A program made the position numbers and the translations under genes. The notes beneath the pieces were generated by a model, which was given only the letters and a program-made list of their open reading frames with translations, did no database searches and was not told the DNA's origin. A stretch of 64,000 nucleotides of DNA, from assembly GCA_947568835.1 (NCBI GenBank), contig OX387602.1, positions 17,473,021 through 17,537,020 of the forward strand. Reading direction: 5' to 3'. Shown here in pieces: positions 21,322 to 31,672 of this stretch (position 1 is the stretch's first letter; each line of letters opens with the position of its first letter). This stretch comes from Protonemura montana (taxonomy: Eukaryota; Arthropoda; Insecta; Plecoptera; Nemouridae).

Positions 21322-21555
21322 TTTTTTTTTTTTTTTTTTTTAACGTGACAGGCTCAAGTCGTATATAAACACTTGATTTTAGACTTGGTAAAAAAAAATC
21401 ATGAAAGTTATATTTCGGATCATCTCTCCCCATCCCTTCACTTGATCCATGTTCCAGGTGAAGGGCTTGGAAAGACAAAAGTAGGAGGTGCCGGGAAGCG
21501 AACTGCGGAACCACGCATTGGAACTCACGAACATCCCACTGCGCTACGAGGACGC
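21322..21555 (-). mobile_element. tRNA-derived SINE with poly(A) tail
   Basis: On the minus strand a tRNA-like head (CGTAGCGCAGTGGG A box; GCAGTTCGCTTCC B box, 21487-21555) leads into a body of about 145 bp and an uninterrupted A20 tail (21322-21341 on the plus strand as T20). Head, body and tail together describe a retroposed SINE of about 234 bp. No clear target duplication is visible. Confidence 0.65.
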
Positions 21556-22627
21556 ATTTGCTGATATTGATTTGTTATCAACATGCAAGTCAATAAAACA
21601 AGATGTAAATAAATCACTTCTAGCAGTAATATTTATGTGTGAATCCTGATGGGTAGGCCACTCATCGTACACGTGTGCACTGACGTCGTGTTTCCAGTCC
21701 AGGCGTTGGGTGTGCAGTCACTTCAATTTCCACTCAAAAAATATTGAAAAATCAATGGACGTTTTTTACGTTTCTTACGTTTATTCTTGATTTTTGAAGA
21801 TTCGCCCATACTGTGGTCTATGGGGTAGTTTGCACCCCCGAACACGATGGGCTATTATGGGTACGATTCCGTTATTTTATAGCTTCAAGGTTGGCAGCTC
21901 AGCAAGGTGGGTACACGGGTTACCGGCCGATGGCCGTGATTTATCGACATTTTAATTGATCAAGTACATTTGATATCCAACAGATTGCGTTTGCGATCAC
22001 TGTGTGCTTTAACTCGACTGCTGGTTCGGTGATACTTGTTTGGGATGGTTGACCAGGAGACCTACCTTCGAACAACGGGGTTCGACTGGCGTTCCTCCAG
22101 TCGGACTTCAAGGCTTGCATTTTCGCGTTAGATCGTGGCAACTGGTGAAAGCCCATTTTTTGGAGTGGCCGCGTGCCTCAGCACTGCTTGGTGTTGGGGT
22201 CCGGTCCGGCATCTACACAGTGTGTAGAAGCGAAACCTTTTGTCTCTATTAGCGCATGGTTGATATCGTGGTGGTGGTGGTGCTGATGGTGATGTTGGTA
22301 TCGATGTTGGTAATGTTTCTGATTTAATTGTTTTGATAATGTTAGTGTATATTAGCTTCGTTATATTGCTTATGTTTGTTAATTTCTGTATGTATGTCGC
22401 ATGATTATATAATATAATTCCGAATAATTTGTGTATATATTAATTTTTCCCCCTTTTCCAACATCTTCTTATATATTTACTTTATGTAATTTTTCGTACT
22501 TAAGTTACATTTTCTTTTAGTAACAGTAGCCATCTTTTCATTTGGCGTTCCCCACCATGGCCAATATTGTTTCGTCGATGCTTTCACCCCCTGGTAGTCA
22601 GGCTAGGAACTAAAATATAATTTGAAA
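21556..22627. other. Intergenic DNA without recognised features
   Basis: Mostly AT-rich, with a short GGT/GTGGTGATG-type simple stretch near 22270-22310. No gene is recognised. Confidence 0.4.
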
Positions 22628-22747
22628 TTTTTTTTCTTGCCCTGGAGGATGATTGGTGTGATTAAAAAAAGATTTAGGCAAGGAGGATCGAACGCAGAAC
22701 GTTTGATACCTGATGCACCCACATAAATCGCTCGACCACAACTCCGT
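22628..22747 (-). mobile_element. Short tRNA-headed SINE relic
   Basis: The minus strand reads CGGAGTTGTGGTCGAGCG (A box) and GCGTTCGATCC (B box) about 40 bases later, then a short body ending in an A8 run near 22628. The TGGTCGAGCG A box suggests a Ser/Leu-type tRNA origin. Confidence 0.5.
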
Positions 22748-22976
22748 CAGAAAATCAGAAAAAAATCTCAAACACTGCCTCCACGATTTTCAATAAAAGA
22801 TATTTCGACGAAACATTATAAACATCAGCTTCAGTATTGCCCATCATCGTACAAAATAAAAAATACGTTTGAAGTCTTGTACAGTTTACTCATCCTGGAT
22901 CTTTCACTAAGTATGAACAGACTGTCGTATTACACCACTTGGACACCCAGGACGACGGTGCCATACACTGGCGCTG

Positions 22977-23275
22977 GCCCTTAGGTCTAGCATCAAGCGT
23001 CTAGGAACGATTATAATGAGTGTTACGCATCATCAGCGCCACCTGTTGACAGGATTTTGTACTACACTTTGGACAAATATGTTGATATTTTCCTGCTGTA
23101 TTTTCATAGTTATTTTCCGATTAGTTAATGAATTAGATTAAAAATCAGACTTGGCAAATGTCTTCAATTATTACAAGTCCATAGTATAGTACAAAATCCT
23201 GCCAACAGGTGGCGCTGATGATGCTTAACACTAATTATAATCGTTCCTATACGCTTGATGCTAGACGTAAAAGCC
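22977..23275. mobile_element. Inverted-repeat MITE beside the hairpin array
   Basis: About 85-bp arms (22981-23064 and 23186-23270) are inverted copies with over 90% identity, sharing GTCTAGCATCAAGCG and CAGCGCCACCTGTTG, around a 120-bp AT-rich centre. The arm similarity extends outward as GGC(C/T)(C/T)TTA. No target duplication could be defined with certainty. The right end abuts the hairpin array at 23279, and the left flank (CACTGGCGCTGG, about 22967) resembles the CTGGCGC module of the hairpins. Confidence 0.75.
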
Positions 23276-23278
23276 CCG

Positions 23279-23319
23279 GTGCATGAGCGACTGGCGCTCC
23301 GCGCCAGTCGCTCATGCAC
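23279..23319. repeat. Hairpin 1 (19-bp perfect stem, TCC loop)
   Basis: The stem 23279-23297 pairs with 23301-23319. On the minus strand the loop is GGA, closed by C-G. Confidence 0.93.
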
Positions 23320-23362
23320 GCTGCTGGGCCCTGGCGCGGAGCGCCAGGGCCCAGCAGCGTGC
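23316..23362. repeat. Hairpin 2 (22-bp perfect stem, GGA loop)
   Basis: The stem 23316-23337 pairs with 23341-23362, sharing four bases with hairpin 1, so only one of the two can be fully extruded. Confidence 0.93.
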
Positions 23363-23418
23363 CGGTGCGCCCGTGCACCTGAGCGCGCTTCGCGCGCTCA
23401 GGTGCACGGGCGCACCGG
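23362..23418. repeat. Hairpin 3 (27-bp perfect stem, TTC loop)
   Basis: The stem 23362-23388 pairs with 23392-23418 with no mismatch. The minus-strand loop is GAA. It is the longest stem of the array. Confidence 0.93.
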
Positions 23419-23458
23419 TGAGCGTCCAAGCGCGCGAAGCGCGCTTGGACGCCCACCG
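23416..23458. repeat. Hairpin 4 (14-bp stem plus outer 5 bp, GAA loop)
   Basis: The stem 23422-23435 pairs with 23439-23452; after one A/C mismatch, 23416-23420 pairs with 23454-23458. The centre contains the GCGAAGC motif. Confidence 0.9.
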
Positions 23459-23462
23459 CTGC

Positions 23463-23493
23463 GCGCTTACGCGCGCGAAGCGCGCGTAAGCGC
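23463..23493. repeat. Hairpin 5 (14-bp perfect stem, GAA loop)
   Basis: The stem 23463-23476 pairs with 23480-23493. The centre contains GCGAAGC. Confidence 0.93.
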
Positions 23494-23496
23494 TAC

Positions 23497-23547
23497 AAAA
23501 TTGCGGAGCGCGACTGGCGCGAAGCGCCAGGAGCGGTCCGCAATTTT
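23497..23547. repeat. Hairpin 6 (24-bp stem with three mismatches, GAA loop)
   Basis: The stem 23497-23520 pairs with 23524-23547. Mismatches lie at 23508, 23512 and 23513. Its outermost pairs are AAAATT/AATTTT, the only AT-rich end in the array. Confidence 0.9.
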
Positions 23548-23620
23548 CCTGGTATCTATAGTATGCGCTCAAAAAAGAAAATTAGAGGTCTTAATGAATT
23601 AGAGATCACTGCGGGAGTTG

Positions 23621-23705
23621 TACGGACGGGATTCGAACCCGGGACCCCGGCAATTTCAGCAATACTCACTAGAGGTAGTGCCTTGTACCGCTCGACCACG
23701 CGGAC
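23621..23705 (-). mobile_element. tRNA-Leu/Ser-like SINE head or tRNA relic
   Basis: The minus strand reads GTCCGCGTGGTCGAGCGGTA (A box) and CCCGGGTTCGAATCCCG (near-perfect B box) about 50 bases on, with room for a long variable arm. The acceptor stem does not pair and the anticodon loop is only four bases, so a working tRNA is unlikely. Confidence 0.55.
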
Positions 23706-23810
23706 ATAGTTACACAGGCATTTTTATGGTATATAAATTCTTCTGACTGCAGCTACCATATGTGAATAATTTGAATGTCGTATTCCAATGGAAAAAATAT
23801 CCTGTCAGTG

Positions 23811-23890
23811 AGCGGGATCGAACCAGGTCACAATGAAGTTTGTTGGTTCCGAAGCAACGACATGTCCATTGTGCTACGCAGACGGTCGCC
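23811..23890 (-). mobile_element. tRNA-like SINE head or tRNA relic
   Basis: The minus strand has CTGCGTAGCACAATGG (A box) and CTGGTTCGATCCCGC (B box) at tRNA-like spacing. Acceptor ends do not pair. It lies among three other tRNA-like units of the same orientation. Confidence 0.5.
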
Positions 23891-24150
23891 CCTGCTGTGG
23901 TAAACTGAATATATTTTTATTTCATATCTTATGGCCAGTATTGTATACTTATGCTTGTAAATCATCTATAAATTACTTATTTACTAATGCATTGATTGCT
24001 TACCTGCTTGTCTCACTTGCCATGTGCCAGTTCCGGTTTATTATTTTGTTTTTCATAAACTACGAGCAGTAATCTGCGGTAATACCACCGGGCTGTCTCA
24101 GTCTGATGAAAATATCTAAAAATTGTGATAGGTATCTCAAACGCGTGACC

Positions 24151-24585
24151 GAACGGTTTGGTGTGTTGGAAACACCGGTTCCCATGAGATCACCGAAGTT
24201 AAGCAACACTGTACTGAGTCAGGTTTCGAATGGGTGACCATCATGCACATGACCAGTCCTGTTCGGGAGGGAGGTTAGAGGGATGAAAGTTAGTACAGCA
24301 ACTTCATTCGCCTTGCTTTCAACCTCTTGACAGCATGGATTTATGGAGGGATCCTGCTGGTCAAGTTATACAGTCTTTCGGAAGGGACGTTAAGCCGGTG
24401 GTCCTCATGGTGCTTTTCGACAGGAGTAGGCTACGTGCCGGCACCGGGTTTCCCCTCCTCCCTTCTAGGCTACGTTATGTTCATCATCATCCACTCATTC
24501 ACCGACGCCATTAGACCAGTGCCACATGGCCAGATGTCAAAACAGTGTGTCATTCAACACCACAAATAAATAAAATCAAACGCGT
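24151..24585 (+). mobile_element. 5S rRNA-headed SINE, full-length copy
   Basis: The head begins GAACGGTTTGGTGTGTTGGA and contains GATCACCGAAGTTAAGCAAC and AATGGGTGACC, corresponding to the A and C boxes of 5S rRNA. The body has GGAAGGGACGTTAAGC, and the 3' end is GTCAAAACAGTGTGTCATTC then AACACCACAAATAAATAAAA. It is the only plus-strand copy in the window and among the best preserved. Confidence 0.88.
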
Positions 24586-25841: not shown

Positions 25842-26396
25842 TTAACGGACGACAGGCGCTTCGGTCTGGTTCGACCTAGACTCCCCCAAGCAGTAAAACT
25901 TCTTGTGAACAATAAAGTTGGATAAGTAAGCGAACGATATGTTACAAAATTTACAGTATTTCGGTCCCGTCTTTTTCACCAAACTTTCCGATAACAAGTT
26001 AGCACTGTTTTCCATCGCGTGGACAGAACCGGAACTGTTCTCGTGTTCCGAGTCTGAGCAGATGACCGGTTCTGTCTTAATGTTTGTGATGTCGACTGCC
26101 TCCGGTGGCGAGGGTGCAATGTCCTCTTCCTCACGCTTGATGGTCTCCTGGCTTACAGAATCTTCGTGTTCGCCAGGCGTTGGGTCGTCGTCCTTGCCAG
26201 GACTGTGCACCAGCTTGTGGTGACGTACGACGTTGCCCTTGTATGTCGAACTGTAGTTGCAGTGCTCGCAGAAGTGCAGCCGATCGTTCCGGCTGCCGTC
26301 CGTGTCCGGGGATGTCGATGGCGCGGGTGCGGGCATTGCAGGCACTGGGCTTACGGGCTCCTCATCGCCGACCACGCACGAGATGAAGTTCTCCTC
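25842..26396 (-). CDS. FOG-family terminal exon: last CCHH and CCHC fingers
   Basis: The exon starts after TGTTTCCAG with EENFISCVVGDE, matching the conserved block after the HFDKK fingers of vertebrate FOG. A CCHH finger (CEHC...HHKLVH, about 751-772) and the terminal CCHC finger (CKFC...HKKFYC, about 856-877) are intact. Between them lie IKREE and IKTE, both of the hydrophobic-K-x-E type used for SUMO attachment, near K795 and K815; FOG proteins are known SUMO targets, but use here is inference. The stop is TAA at 25842-25844. Confidence 0.95.
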   Translation of the reverse strand, partial: EENFISCVVGDEEPVSPVPAMPAPAPSTSPDTDGSRNDRLHFCEHCNYSSTYKGNVVRHHKLVHSPGKDDDPTPGEHEDSVSQETIKREEEDIAPSPPEAVDITNIKTEPVICSDSEHENSSGSVHAMENSANLLSESLVKKTGPKYCKFCNISFAYLSNFIVHKKFYCLGESRSNQTEAPVVR

Positions 26397-29300
26397 CTGG
26401 AAACAGAGGGATAATGGTGAGGTCAGCTCTCAGGTTTGCCATCCATAAAAATAAATAAATAATTTTATTATATTATTTGTATAATAATGGGAAAATGTGA
26501 GAAATTGTTTCTGGTTGTATAGTGGATTGTTTCTTGTTTCGAAAAGACGATTTTCTCAGACATCACGGTCCAGTCTAGAAGATTTTGCTTCTAATTGATA
26601 CGCAGCAGATTTAATTTTAAAATGTACATATAAATTCAGGCAATCCCATATCAAGATCGGTATAGGAACCCCTGTACACCCCCTGTCGTCCTTAAAATAC
26701 AAATTGCCTCATTGACTGTCTGTTCATTACTACAGGTTTTGACCATAAAAGATATTAAATTATAATATTCCAAAATAATATTTCGGTAGCCCGACACAAA
26801 ATTCTCTAGAACTTTCACCCAACCCACCTGCAAAACCTGCAAAACCCACCTGCAGATCAGTGGCCTTCTTTTCAAAGTGCATCCGTATGTGCGTGCGCAT
26901 GCCGCGCAGCGTGTTCCCCTTGTAGCGACAGATAGTACATCGGAAGGCCTTCACTCCTGAATGGCTGTCCATGTGGCGTTGGGCGGCACTCGCCGTCGCT
27001 GACACGACGTCACAACACAAACACTTCCAGCCGCCACACGTGTGCGCTTCGCTACCCGTCGTCACCGTCTTGCACTTGACACAGCGTCGGCTGCAAAAAG
27101 GAGGCAAAATTAGAGTTGAGAGTGAGTCGACTTACTTGAAGAGTAAGTGGAGAACAGAAGTTTGCTCCCAAGGCAAGCTGGTACTTTGTTTGCAATATAT
27201 TCAGCTCACGTTTAAATCATTTTTAACTATCAATAAAATGCGTTTCCAGATTTTTGTCTTGTCTCTTGCATACAGGTCATTTGAGAGACTAAAAATTGTA
27301 GGATTTGCAGTTTGATTTTTCTGTAGACTTCTTGGGAGTATGTTAAGAGATCTGAAGGACGCTCTGGTTCCGTTGTAAAATAATCAAGCGGAACCCTCTC
27401 CCGCCACTGCTGTCAAAGCTCCGACCAAAGGTTCACAACACTTGGGTTCATTGCGTGTTAAAAAAAGGCACAGCAAGATCAAGAGTCTTTGAGGAACAAA
27501 TGCAAATGTAGAGAATTTTCTTATCAACTGATGAGTTCTGACTCATGATCAAAGTAACCAAATTTTCAAAGTGATAAAACTAGCTATTTTCAGCCTGGAA
27601 AACATTGAAATGTTTTTCTGTTTTTCTTGCATTGCAATGTTTTTATTTTCTTTATATTCTCATCTATCTTGCTTTGATCCAATGAGATCTTTGGTTTTAA
27701 CAAAGTAAAGGGCCATGTGTTGTTCATGGTTAATTAATAGGCTTATCTATTGTAAGTTATAATAGTATAGATAATAGTGTTAGTAGGTTTCTATAATTAA
27801 GTTTTACCTGAAAGTAACTATACCAGTCGTTTTGCAGTCTTCTTTATTCTCAACCCTCTTCGGACAGTAGTATGCCTGGTGCGCCGATAGGTTGTCGAGA
27901 GAGGTGAACTTGATACCGCAAGCTGCACAGATGTACTGGTAGAGCGTAACAGGAGGTTTTGCGGGAATCGTTGCAGGAACGGGACTGGGGGACTTTGCAT
28001 CCTTGCCCATCGGCGTCAAAGGTGCCGGAGAGTGCCCTGGCAAAACAGGGCTGGGGCCTTTTCCATCTGATTCGCTGTTTGGCTCGGTCCGTGCAGAACA
28101 ATAGTGCTTCTTGTGAGCAATGTAATTGTCGTGCAAGCAGAACACTATGTTGCACTCTTGGCATTTGGACACACCTTGCTTGACTAAGACTTGCGGTGGT
28201 AAAGCCATATCATGAGAGGAAGCGCCGCCCAGTTTGGCCATCTTGAGGTTCTGAGGCTTGTTGGGGTCTTCCGGCGAAGAAGCATCTCTGCTGCCGTCGG
28301 TGATGGAGTACCGTCTTTTCACCCCATTGTGTACGATGCCGTTGTGGGGGGATGTTTGCGAGCGATGGCCGCAACTGCCCGGCCGGCAGCACGAGTCAGA
28401 GCTCCGCGGACGCTTGGCGTTGGTCAGGGAAGAGGAAGAGAGAGCAGGAGAGATGGGGGAGGGGGTGGAGGATGTGGAGGAGAGGGGTAACGAAGGGGCG
28501 CAGATGATTTCTTCTGATAGCTCGTTTCTTCTGTTCTCTTTTTCGTCTTCATCAGAGTCGAGATCCACTACCAAGTCACCAGCTTCAGAAGACACTGCAA
28601 AAATTAATTAGAGTATTCAATATTTGCTCATTTTAGTTATCAATTCAACCTGCTTGAATAAAATAATTTTAAGTGAAAGGAAAGAAAAACTCAGAAAGCA
28701 ATTTGGTTATATCTTTGATAAGAGCATTCACCCTTTTCTCCTTTAGTTTACTTCGCATGGTGGCAAGCAGCAGTGCCTTTGTTATTTTTAATTTGTTTTT
28801 CTTTCAAAAAGAGATATAATCTCGTTGAGATAGCAGTTGTAACTTAGTTAAGGTCATTATACTAACGCATGTTACGCATTTTGCACGCTACCAGAATTAA
28901 ATTATAAATTATTCATCGATACTCTAGTGTTGATAAAACTGCATGATTCGGCACCAGACTTGCAAAAATACGATGGGTCAACCCAAGTGCACACTGCAAT
29001 TCTGGAGCGAAAGCACAAAGATAAGAAAATTATAAATATAAATGGAAATTATGAAAGATAGCGGAGGGCATTACCCATTCGGCAAATCGCCACAGGGCAC
29101 GTTCCCTCACCTGAGATCGGCGACCTCCGCATGCTGAGATCCAACGGCAGACTGCTGTCGATGACGCGCATTGGCGTCGCCTTGATTTGATGAGATTTCG
29201 CCTGTTTGGTTGGCTGCATCGAGCCGTCGGGCAGCAGGATACATGCTGTGTTGTGTGCCATCGCCGCCAACGCCGGCAGCATGCTGGCCCCCTGCAGCAT

Positions 29301-31672
29301 TGTCAGCGGCACGAGCACCACCGGTGTCGTCGGTAGCGCCAGATACGATTGCTCCTTAGGAGACTGCGAGGGCGCGGGGTGTGCGACACCTTGCTGCATC
29401 TTGCGTCGGGTCTCGCAGTAGTGCAACTTGTGACCACGCAACGTCTTCGCCGAAGAGAATCGGATGTTGCAGTCCTGGCAGTACCGATCGACGAGATGAG
29501 GGGATGGCGGCTGCACGGGTTCTGATCCACTCCCCGGAGAAGTGGCGTGCATCCGCATATGTCTGTTGAGGCTGACTTTCTTGTCCGCGCTGTAGGAACA
29601 GTGGGGACACGCATATTGTTTCCCTGTGCGTAACGCTTTGGCGGCATGCTCGCCGTCGTTCTGCGTCGCTTCTGTCATGTCCGAGCACATGCTCTTGCCT
29701 TCCTCGCTGTCGCTGTTCTCACCTCGTCCTGAAACCAGAGGCGATGTCTCGATAACACGGTCTATGGTCCCATTGGAATCACACCTTATTTCTTGGGTTT
29801 TCCCCAGTTACTAATTTCAAACTACCATTACGCTAATGCTAAATTTTCTTTGCAAAAATGGCCCCAAATGGTCACTGACAACGATGGAGGATGATACTAG
29901 GTTGAGTCACCGCCGTTTATCGTGTAAAAAAATTTTATTTCGTAATTTCATGCAGATAACTCGCGTTTGAGACAGGTTTACGCTCAATTAATTATTATAA
30001 ATGCTAACTTCAATTATTGATTTACACATATCGATATTTTGAGTCTCAATTATTCAATAGGTTTGTTTAAAAGGACGGTCTCAAACGCCATCAGTTGGCA
30101 CCTAACGTTACCACGTGTTGCCGAATCGTTTACTTAGCAGAAAGTTCAACATTATCGCAGGTCTTCTGACTGTCCCTGGAAACTCAATGCAATTTCTTTG
30201 GTAGCAGCTAAACCCGAAACTAAAATTAGATCTTTCTCCATACGCTTCCGGGTTGTGTATGTAACATTTTTCCGGTCTGGACGAGCATGACAATGGAATT
30301 GGTTTAATTAAGTATGTGTAGAAGCGTCAGATAACCCTTATCTACTATATTTATTTACTGATTTGCCAAAGACTTTGAACTAGAGACTAAACTCTCAAGG
30401 GTACAGATGATCGGGGTAATCCTAAATGGACTAACCTTTCGCCGCCTTGGGCCTGTGTGAGCAGTAGTAGGTCTGATGCGCCTCCAGCGTGCTCAAGGAG
30501 CTGAAGCGTATGCCGCAAGGAGTGCACATGTACACGGGCACTGTTCGGCGGGAAGCAAAGAAACAAAACAGTCAGAACGGCACACTTCACAGAACTGTAC
30601 ATCCACAGAGACAGCGCGGACGAACACACTCTGAGATGCCAGAAGAGGAAGCAAAGGAAAGGCCGACGCCCATGTGCCAAGAAAACTCAAGTGCACAGTA
30701 ATTCAATGTGTTATATATACAGTGAACTGTTGCTTATAGGTTAGGTTTAGAACCGACCGACCAATGTACAGGGATACCAGTCGAAATGAATACAAAAGAT
30801 TTGAGTAATATTTTCGCTTTATCTACTACAATCTATAATCTCGAGACATCAAGGTTTAAATTTTCGAATATATAAACACGTTATCTTTGATCAAGCGCAG
30901 AGCGTTGGCTAGAAGTTATCTATGCGTTTTAATCTCAGTATTAATCTACTTCTCTCACAATTAATCTCAAACTTGATACAGCTTGCTGAGCTATCGAGCG
31001 TAAGATCTTCCAAGCATTTGATCACGGCGTGCGATAAAACACGCACAAAGATTGCTTTTCAAAAATAAATGGCAGGCTTTAACACAAACAGACAGGCACC
31101 CAAGCCGCAAACAAAAACTGCTATTCTAGAACTTTGAACTTTATGCAGACTTTTATCAGTATCACTCAACTATAAATAATTGTGCAAGACAACACCAATT
31201 ATTTATGATTACGGAGCAATGCTAAATACGCTGTTGGAAGTCATGTGAAACGAAAGTAATGTTTAAAATTAACGGCTGCCTCCAAGTAAGTAGCACCTAC
31301 CCTGCACTGAGTCTGCTTTGCTGACAGGCACCTGGGTCGGCGTTGGCGTCGGCGTTGGCAGACAGAAGTACGGACTAGCCGCGAGCGCCGACGGTAGCGC
31401 CGCGAGGAATTCCGCCGTGATGCCTGTGGGTAGCCGAAGAGCAGGGTCCGTGGCAAGCCCAGCTTTCAATCGCAGTCGTGGCACTTCCTCGGCCTTGCTC
31501 TTCGGGGGAGGCGACTCTGCGACGATGACCGAAGGGGGCGTCGCTGTCGGCGTTGGCGTCGGCGTTGGAGTCGGCGTCGGCGTTGTGGTGCCAGCGTCGT
31601 CTCCCTGTACGACAGGCTGCTCGGCGCGGGGCTTCTCACCCTCGACGTCACTCACCCAGTCGTCGTCTTCAC
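25842..31672 (-). CDS. FOG/ZFPM (u-shaped) family GATA cofactor, 5'-incomplete (six exons)
   Basis: Exons, in transcript order 31672-31301, 30540-30436, 29728-29111, 28594-27808, 27090-26850 and 26396-25842, join in frame (phases 1, 1, 1, 2, 0) to give about 891 residues ending in a natural stop. About ten zinc fingers alternate CCHC and CCHH types in the FOG order, with final finger KYCKFCNISFAYLSNFIVHK followed by KFYC, and a PLDLS motif (about residue 354). By family knowledge the CCHC fingers bind the N-terminal finger of GATA factors, and PxDLS recruits the corepressor CtBP; the protein acts in the nucleus as a GATA coregulator in blood, heart and gut development. Vertebrate FOGs are 1,000-1,150 residues, so the N-terminal part lies upstream, beyond 31672. 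No defect is seen. Confidence 0.93.
26397..26849 (-). other. FOG-family intron
   Basis: This 453-bp phase-0 intron runs from GTGGGT to TTTCCAG on the minus strand. Three GCAG|GT-like donors in tandem lie at its start (26828-26850). Confidence 0.85.
26850..27090 (-). CDS. FOG-family exon: paired CCHH fingers
   Basis: It starts after CCTTTTTGCAG; the first base completes a Ser codon. RRCVKCKTVT and AHTC may form a small Cys/His unit. Two closely spaced fingers follow: WKCLCCDVVSATASAAQRHM (CCHH, about 651-671) and CTICRYKGNTLRGMRTHIRM (CCHH, about 679-699) then HFEKK, among the most conserved parts of all FOG proteins. The exon ends ATDLQ at donor GTGGGT (phase 0). Confidence 0.95.
27091..27807 (-). 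other. FOG-family intron
   Basis: This 717-bp phase-2 intron runs from GTAAAA to TTTTTGCAG on the minus strand. No repeat or RNA is recognised. Confidence 0.85.
27808..28594 (-). CDS. FOG-family exon: two CCHC fingers
   Basis: The acceptor is AATTTTTGCAG; the first two bases complete a Val codon. The exon opens with an acidic stretch (DLDSDEDEKENRR), then a Ser/Pro-rich disordered part. CCHC finger CQEC...HKKHYC (about 510-531) and, after a Pro-rich spacer, CCHC finger YICAACGIKFTSLDNL...HQAYYC (about 588-609) follow; YYCPKR after the latter is typical of FOG. The exon ends GIVTF plus two bases at donor GTAAAA (phase 2). The alternative GTATAG donor 18 bases earlier would break the frame with the next exon. 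Confidence 0.93.
28595..29110 (-). other. FOG-family intron
   Basis: This 516-bp phase-1 intron runs from GTGAGG to TTTTTGCAG on the minus strand. No further feature is seen. Confidence 0.85.
29111..29728 (-). CDS. FOG-family exon: CCHH and CCHC fingers plus CtBP motif
   Basis: It begins after GGTTTCAG with an acidic segment (GRGENSDSEEGKS). The CCHH finger CPHCSYSADKKVSLNRHMRM (about 200-220) is close to vertebrate FOG, and the CCHC finger CQDCNIRFSSAKTLRGHK and HYC (about 243-264) follows at the usual distance. After a hydrophobic, Pro-rich spacer comes SSLPLDLSMRR, containing PLDLS (354-358), the family CtBP-binding site. The donor is CTCAG|GTGAGG (phase 1); reading on gives a spurious 30-residue tail. 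Confidence 0.95.
29729..30435 (-). other. FOG-family intron
   Basis: This 707-bp phase-1 intron runs from GTTAGT to GGTTTCAG on the minus strand. No further feature is recognised. Confidence 0.85.
30436..30540 (-). CDS. FOG-family short exon: one CCHC finger
   Basis: This 105-bp exon encodes VPVYMCTPCGIRFSSLSTLE then AHQTYYCSHRPKAAK, a single CCHC finger (about 130-151) of the GATA-binding type. Both neighbours join in phase 1. The acceptor GCCGAACAG has a weak pyrimidine tract; the donor is AAAG|GTTAGT. It could be skipped without a frameshift, since 105 is divisible by three and both sides are phase 1. Confidence 0.92.
30541..31300 (-). other. FOG-family intron
   Basis: This 760-bp phase-1 intron runs from GTAGGT to GCCGAACAG on the minus strand. 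No feature is recognised. Confidence 0.85.
31301..31672 (-). CDS. FOG-family exon: disordered N-terminal region with TP repeat
   Basis: The acceptor is TTCTTCATCAG; the first two bases complete a Gly codon. The exon reads EDDDWVSDVEGEKP, then a (TP)n run encoded by GGCGTC/GGCGTT-type hexamers on the plus strand, a basic stretch (PRLRLKAGL) and LPTGITAEFLAALPSALAAS, then a second short (TP)n. No zinc finger or enzyme domain is present. It is assigned to the FOG gene by phase match (phase 1), strand and distance rather than by strong similarity. The start codon is not here; at least one further 5' exon is required. Confidence 0.82.

Follow-up and report, generated by a model that had tools for sequence, protein, structure and literature searches.

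A chain of six hairpins inside a dispersed non-coding repeat of Protonemura montana, with loops inverted between copies

Perfect palindromes in DNA are expected to vanish or decay, yet dozens of copies of the hairpin chain described here stay paired while their sequence shifts, which raises the question of what such a chain belongs to and what keeps its arms complementary. The chain lies at 23279-23547 of the window, that is, the whole 64,000-nucleotide stretch of Protonemura montana DNA that was analyzed. A sequence-only reading had reported six consecutive palindromes there, and we verified all six, each closed by a 3-nt loop, in a block with a G+C content of 72% against 43% for the window (Table 1). 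The same reading held that the palindromes follow each other without spacers and overlap by 1-4 bases. This is true of the first two junctions, where hairpins 1 and 2 share four bases and hairpins 2 and 3 share one, but the other three, when only perfect stems are considered, have spacers of 3, 10, and 3 nt and look abutting only when imperfect outer pairs are counted. That the arrangement lies beyond chance was borne out by every comparison: 20 rounds of dinucleotide shuffling of the complete window yielded no perfect stem of at least 12 bp with a 3-6 nt loop, just 2 of 1000 shuffles of the array itself yielded a stem of at least 12 bp with a 3-nt loop (the longest being 13 bp), and the predicted single-strand DNA fold of the array, at -171.3 kcal/mol (z = -21.5), was equaled by none of 200 shuffles. 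An assembly accident is an unlikely source, since the same array recurs at many assembly loci with diverged flanks.

Table 1. Features of the hairpin array and its surroundings, in window coordinates
Feature	Position	Strand	Description
Window copy of the dispersed mosaic repeat	21356..23936	+	Other copies extend further on both sides; limits from similarity among 20 long loci
99-bp inverted repeat adjoining the array	22976..23275 (arms 22976-23074 / 23177-23275)	.	Arms 91% complementary
Hairpin 1	23279..23319	.	Perfect 19-bp stem, loop TCC
Hairpin 2	23316..23362	.	Perfect 22-bp stem, loop GGA
Hairpin 3	23362..23418	.	Perfect 27-bp stem, loop TTC
Hairpin 4	23422..23452	.	Perfect 14-bp stem (longer if mismatches are allowed), loop GAA
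Hairpin 5	23463..23493	.	Perfect 14-bp stem, loop GAA
Hairpin 6	23497..23547	+	24-bp stem, 88% complementary (three mismatches), tandem G.A mismatch, loop GAA
Degenerate tRNA-like segment	23617..23706	-	B-box-like GGTTCGAATCC; ARAGORN, lowered threshold
Second degenerate tRNA-like segment	23803..23883	-	B-box-like GGTTCGATCCC; ARAGORN, lowered threshold

The array is part of one truncated copy of a dispersed, mosaic, non-coding repeat. When the genome itself (258,480,905 bases in 34 contigs) was searched with the block, at least 36 matches covered at least 286 of the 311 query bases, a lower bound that includes the window's own copy and comes from scoring 40 of 561 candidates; the identity of the other matches was 77-94%. 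We fetched 20 loci of about 8.3 kb first and 42 other loci in all, chosen by their match to the array or to its left flank, and in 37 of these 42 the array or a remnant stands at the same place of a common repeat, so that the proposal of the sequence-only reading to look for dispersed arrays within a defined element gave a positive answer. Two-sided anchors delimited 38 arrays or remnants from the 42 loci and the window; no anchor pair was present in L045, which has lost the array, in L047, or in L046, L049, and L050, where remnants were recognized by eye. The arrays fall into two subfamilies, the second of which (L036-L043) lacks hairpin 5 and has 24 additional bases ahead of hairpin 1. Hairpins are also gained and lost within single copies, with deletions in L033, L035, and L044 and an expanded hairpin 5 in L034. 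The enlargement in L034 (473-779) consists of repeated GCGCGCGCTC and is possibly a snapshot of array growth via slippage.

Similarity to the window starts at 21356 in 18 of the 20 long loci and stops at 23936 in 16 of them, and the other copies continue on both sides in sequence that they share, which identifies the window copy as a fragment and the array as internal. The left end common to the copies is CAGTGTCGGACTGGCC..., starting with CAGTG, and the common right end, ...AAATCACATCTA(G), lies about 3.9 kb from it, with the array some 2.2 kb from the left end in fuller copies such as L010. The suggestion that these might be terminal hairpins is thus not supported, and as the array lies within a larger repeat, we rejected both an independent array element and a terminal hairpin. 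With up to two substitutions, the left-end sequence CAGTGTCGGACTGGCCAG was found in 15 of 21 sequences, and its reverse complement in none of the 21 (fetched stretches of about 8-16 kb). A second copy of the left end lies downstream, in the same direction, in 5 of 20 loci (L011, L019, L022, L023, and L025) and, in more divergent form, in L015 and L017. The left-end sequence CAGTGTCGGACTGGCCAGGGC has 83 copies on the plus strand and 84 on the minus strand genome-wide, is repeated at a 34-bp spacing at C5:921508-921664 and C13:1499922-1500010, and also lies about 110 kb or less from the ends of several contigs.

Signatures of known classes of mobile element were looked for in the repeat. A DNA transposon with terminal inverted repeats was rejected, as the fetched stretches of about 8-16 kb contain no such repeat. 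Helitrons begin with TC, end with CTRR preceded by a hairpin, insert between A and T, and encode a Rep/helicase. The element starts with CAGTG, its right end, ATCTA(G), resembles CTAG in part of the copies and is followed by a variable base, and the tested ORFs contain no Rep domain; this candidate was also rejected. Inspection of the junctions by eye gave no acceptable target-site duplication, the one 5-bp candidate being in L024. Among eight element ORFs from L019 and L022, none has a transposase, reverse transcriptase, Rep, or terminal protein domain; seven match nothing and one has a weak match to DUF5867 under the cut-off. Nor is there a long reading frame, the longest stop-to-stop frame in 20 loci being 210 aa (in six loci without a clean left end the element start was placed by eye). 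The element is presumably a non-autonomous mobile repeat. In a search for spread to viruses or prokaryotes, the 22-base G-run had no match in viral contigs and a 25-base hairpin pattern had none in genome contigs; a 17-base hairpin pattern matched 49 viral-contig stretches, presumed to be chance matches of a short GC-rich palindrome.

The array has a simpler relative in the same genome. The inner hairpin CTGGCGC-NNN-GCGCCAG occurs at 703 places genome-wide, the reversed-pattern control at none, and in 680 of the 703 the loop is GNA or TNC (348 and 332 by strand). At 28 loci without an array (L051-L078) the hairpin is present once per module, and the modules are often paired head to head. The module's hairpin is built from an invariant inner stem of 7 bp, a GNA loop, a tandem G.A/A.G mismatch, and an outer stem with paired changes, for example, T-A to C-G in 4 of 21 distinct sequences. 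In isolated copies, the module reads in order as a tRNA-like segment, a spacer, a G-rich stretch, the hairpin, an A-run, and tRNA-like segments on the opposite strand. Beside the tRNA-like segments, a strongly conserved core of about 120 bp, aligned from 15 hand-picked loci, holds the single hairpin. Across 20 loci (of 22 named, L052 and L061 failing the position filter), the majority agreement reaches 0.94-0.99 in the four 30-column alignment windows around the hairpin and its G-rich stretch, is 0.90 in the one that follows, and lies at 0.54-0.83 in the other 16. The conservation of the hairpin tip is partly built in since the tip was the motif by which the loci were found; the G-rich stretch guided only the choice of L062-L066.

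The mismatch and the loop of the single hairpin are kept as well. Because L067-L078 were selected by the mismatch pattern, which makes the 21/21 and 48/49 counts that include them partly circular, we counted the mismatch in L051-L066 alone, 16 loci for which it was not a criterion. All 37 loops behind the G-run core are GNA in these loci, GA/GA is kept in 36 of the 37 hairpins (two more cores lack the exact inner hairpin), and the tandem mismatch is kept in 13 of 13 distinct 55-mers, tabulated for hairpins with GCGCGNAGCGC and a flank starting GCAAA or GCAGA. Genome-wide, the tandem-mismatch hairpin with a GNA loop is present at 457 places, a small number of which belong to arrays, namely, that of the window and at least one more; the same mismatched stem with a flipped loop is present at none. 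The G.A motif and the GNA loop are stable motifs on the plus strand. Hairpins of the d(GCGAAGC) type are exceptionally stable, and the motif is used in work on stable hairpins.

Hairpin 6 is the counterpart of this single hairpin and retains the mismatched form in the window copy. The inner sequence of the single hairpin recurs in hairpins 1 and 2, and the right arm of the 99-bp inverted repeat next to the array can be aligned with the spacer lying before the hairpin of single-hairpin modules. The array appears to stand in for a single hairpin whose loop is GNA and whose stem has a tandem G.A mismatch, and added hairpins may have taken the place of the core's G-rich part along one lineage.

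How well the stems are kept could be read from 36 arrays, the decayed L044 and L048 being left out. The two sides of a stem change together: 98.7% of 4022 pair cells are paired, and both-side changes affect 23 of the 116 pairs (shuffled mean, 8.9) and 81 cells (shuffled mean, 13.3), with none of 500 shuffles as high. Slid structures gave 0-4 pairs with a both-side change, a comparison that somewhat favors the true structure, which was taken from the window copy. A separate count on longer stems found 4092 consensus, 90 compensated, 27 G.T, and 65 broken cells. When variants were divided by sharing among 35 copies (L012, on a long branch, being left out as well), the private ones comprised 34 broken, 12 G.T, and 7 compensated types, and the shared ones 22 compensated, 11 broken, and 5 G.T. 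Correction is therefore not instant, given that private stem variants are mostly unpaired, and the pattern is the one expected if pairing matters in spreading copies or returns with time. In the same 35 copies, private substitutions per base amount to 0.56% in stems, 1.09% in flanks, and 0.70% in flank CpG columns. The changes can also come in groups, as in hairpin 4 of L031 and L032, where three adjacent pairs differ jointly.

The loops behave differently from one hairpin to the next. Hairpins 2, 3, and 4 exist in both orientations on unchanged stems, with 23 GNA and 14 TNC loops in hairpin 2, 10 and 27 in hairpin 3, and 19 and 16 (plus three others) in hairpin 4; both GGA/TCC and GAA/TTC pairs are present in hairpins 2 and 4. 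Hairpin 1 has a TNC loop in all 35 scorable copies (the other three having other loops or gaps), hairpin 5 has GNA in all 26 (one copy has GAC, and 11 are gapped, including the subfamily without this hairpin), and hairpin 6 has one orientation in 37. Stem length alone is no predictor of flipping since hairpins 1 and 6 are long-stemmed yet unflipped. On a tree of the flanks (38 rows), hairpins 2, 3, and 4 need 11, 5, and 5 changes, and hairpins 1, 5, and 6 need none. With shuffled means of 11.5, 9.0, and 11.9 for the three flipping hairpins, the orientation of hairpin 2 has no tree signal, whereas hairpins 3 and 4 do carry one; the changes are not to be read as event counts because recombination or exchange among copies could spread old flips. 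Near-identical copies differ by a flip, namely, L022 and L023 (10 of 829 flank sites) and L038 and L040 (15 of 798).

Loop inversions of this kind have precedents. In PMC8794818, pure loop inversion and joint compensatory changes are described as footprints of template switching in RNA genes (rRNA and microRNA), and both are seen here, with the difference that they affect a multicopy nuclear repeat in which three of six hairpins are flipped and three never are. Chloroplasts provide a further case of small inversions at hairpins, according to work cited in PMC3123225; the avian inversion hotspots of that paper had no stem-loops, so that inversion at hairpins is no general rule. The sequence-only reading had offered repeated templated inversion as an origin for the array. 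Loops are indeed inverted between copies on the same stems; this bears on how the hairpins are kept up, not on how the array arose.

One account of these patterns would be purely mutational: the hairpins would be functionless, template switches would re-copy arms and flip loops, and the repeat would spread by other means. Loops that flip while stems stay unchanged, joint compensatory changes, and mismatches without strand bias all fit this account, as does the fate of hairpin 6, whose tandem G.A is lost in most fetched arrays. Among the 38 arrays, CCAG is followed by GAGC in 4, TCGC in 28, and TTGC in 4, with no match in 2, so that 4 keep the mismatched form and 32 have it perfected or nearly so. 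Outside arrays, however, the mismatch is rarely perfected, the mismatched stem having 457 places and the perfected one 68, with 47 of the 50 listed among the latter on array loci; moreover, the core is better conserved than its flanks, and hairpins 1, 5, and 6 never flip. We consider a purely mutational upkeep unlikely. Since template switching alone leaves the mismatch, the unflipped loop, and the conserved core unexplained, we infer that there is selection on a folded single strand as well.

We therefore favor, with a probability of roughly 0.58, the reading that the array is the hairpin region of a non-coding mobile repeat in which a selected folded signal is combined with upkeep by template switching. 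The single hairpin would act in folded, single-stranded form and be recognized by whatever carries out the copying of the element, and this strand could be single-stranded DNA exposed at a fork, single-stranded DNA in a transposition intermediate, or a transcript. A folded hairpin read by the copying machinery would explain why the core, the loop orientation, and the G.A mismatch are kept, and the most likely role of the single hairpin is that of a fold-dependent signal in the copying of the element. In the array, replication of the hairpin chain would provoke template switches between arms, which may re-copy one arm from the other, producing joint compensatory changes, and invert loops while leaving stems untouched. 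The loop flips probably record errors made when the folded DNA of a mobile element is copied, and perfect pairing would be upheld partly by selection among spreading copies and partly by the copying error itself. Flipping and fixed loops in one array amount to a natural experiment that sets selection on a folded strand against self-templated repair; its internal control is the single hairpin, which bears the mismatch and is unflipped at hundreds of places. Should the hairpin prove to be a copying signal, it would offer a lead to the mechanism by which an unclassified mobile family works.

One candidate for the folded strand, a transcript, deserves separate consideration in view of what flanks the array. 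The sequence-only reading knew of no SINE with this design; to take this as the absence of any relation to SINEs would be too strong, as degenerate tRNA-like segments lie beside the array. ARAGORN calls them at a 90% threshold, the default giving none in the window. The first segment (23617..23706) has no Rfam tRNA match, just a 15-base tmRNA fragment under threshold, and a scan of the window stretch and 21 loci found no standard tRNA, only sub-threshold tmRNA fragments and one weak tRNA-Sec. The module could nonetheless act at the RNA level, as part of a tRNA-derived, SINE-like transcript whose hairpins would be a signal for a partner reverse transcriptase or precursors of small RNAs. This possibility draws on the A/B-box-like sequence of the flanking segments and a very stable predicted RNA fold. 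It agrees less well with the runs of T that, when the tRNA strand is read, separate the reverse-strand tRNA-like part from the hairpins. Such runs are expected to stop RNA polymerase III. G.T mismatches are not favored over A.C in the array stems (27 vs 23 cells, 17 vs 17 types), and this equality disfavors selection on one RNA strand for these stems. Flipped loops would alter the tip of the RNA, and Rfam assigns the hairpins to no known RNA family, its microRNA-like and other matches all being under gathering scores. Function of the module in RNA is, on balance, decidedly unlikely. In its neighborhood, the module is nearest to tRNA-derived SINEs with a conserved central domain, a known insect design represented by HaSE1 and HaSE2 (PMC3272025); as in these, tRNA-like parts lie by a conserved block in many dispersed copies. 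Unlike them, the element is a far longer mosaic, measured in kilobases, with tRNA-like parts in both orientations and with inverted and tandem modules.

Downstream of the array, 24148-24268 (+) is 5S rRNA-like, scoring 58.1 bits, over the Rfam gathering score. The repeat around it, about 420 bp long (24148-24569), also matches L009, L010, L019, and L022 and looks like a 5S-derived SINE.

The nearest structural match that we met is the telomere of Streptomyces, in its archetypal and atypical forms. According to PMC7205883 and PMC4513846, packed palindromes within about 160-180 nt (five to eight in one study), 3-nt loops of the GGA, GCA, or GNA type, many with sheared G.A closure, and compensatory changes in one strain typify these telomeres, and, judged on its sequence, the array appears to share the packed palindromes and GNA loops that define them in PMC7205883. 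The array might then be a replication or terminal hairpin of a rolling-circle, single-stranded DNA, or telomere-like element, comparable to Streptomyces telomeres or parvovirus ends, and the existence of tandem and inverted module arrays would suit such a role. The Streptomyces palindromes, however, are bacterial, lie at chromosome ends, bind Tap/Tpg on a 3' overhang, and include some CTTG loops, whereas the array is nuclear and internal to a dispersed repeat, and its loops, which point to either strand within a single array and change orientation from copy to copy, do not behave as a signal on a one-strand overhang would. At the loci examined, the array lies inside the repeat and not at a replicon end, and the eight tested ORFs contain no Rep or terminal-protein domain. 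Given these differences in place, proteins, and strand rule, the Streptomyces telomere is a look-alike, and we regard a terminal or replicative hairpin as very unlikely. A bolder reading is improbable as well. In it, an animal nuclear mobile element would replicate or transpose by means of a chain of superstable DNA hairpins with GNA caps, a working structure that would have arisen in convergence with the telomeres of Streptomyces and the ends of parvoviruses, and the flips would be footprints of a strand-switching copy step.

By life-style, the nearest counterparts are mitochondrial hairpin elements. The repetitive hairpin-forming elements (RHE) in sponge mitochondria and the GC clusters in those of yeast are palindromic hairpins that are scattered, at times with two or more in a row, and are treated as mobile (PMC2800124 and PMC4478555). 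These are organellar, whereas the array lies on a 33-Mb contig that carries a ZFPM-like zinc-finger gene; moreover, the stems of the sponge RHE are conserved while the loops vary, whereas here the loops are mostly GNA/TNC and the stems covary. The open frames of a ZFPM/FOG-like zinc-finger gene lie at 25842-29690 (-), with a Pfam CCHC_ZFPM2 match in 27804-28595 and protein matches that are unnamed, hypothetical, or named ZFPM1; the gene is indicative of a metazoan host.

Among other repeat classes, Foldback elements, which have long inverted repeats, resemble several fetched copies that form head-to-head inverted pairs (such as L057, with arms of 497 nt at 98%); the full element differs from them, the search for its terminal inverted repeats having been negative. 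CRISPR arrays consist of identical direct repeats and unique spacers of even size. With its few short direct repeats and uneven spacing, the array is not one of them. We found no description of such a hairpin array in the open-licence literature searched.

The single-hairpin module also builds larger structures. Tandem single-hairpin arrays with periods of about 1.69-1.79 kb and some GTA loops are found at 28.86-31.15 Mb of contig C1, where the module is used in a satellite-like manner. An 818-bp tandem repeat of two inverted hairpin modules makes up L055:1-3701, with at least eight hairpins in 3.7 kb, and L059:1-2270 is a palindrome of about 2.27 kb, 97% self-complementary, that holds four hairpin modules.
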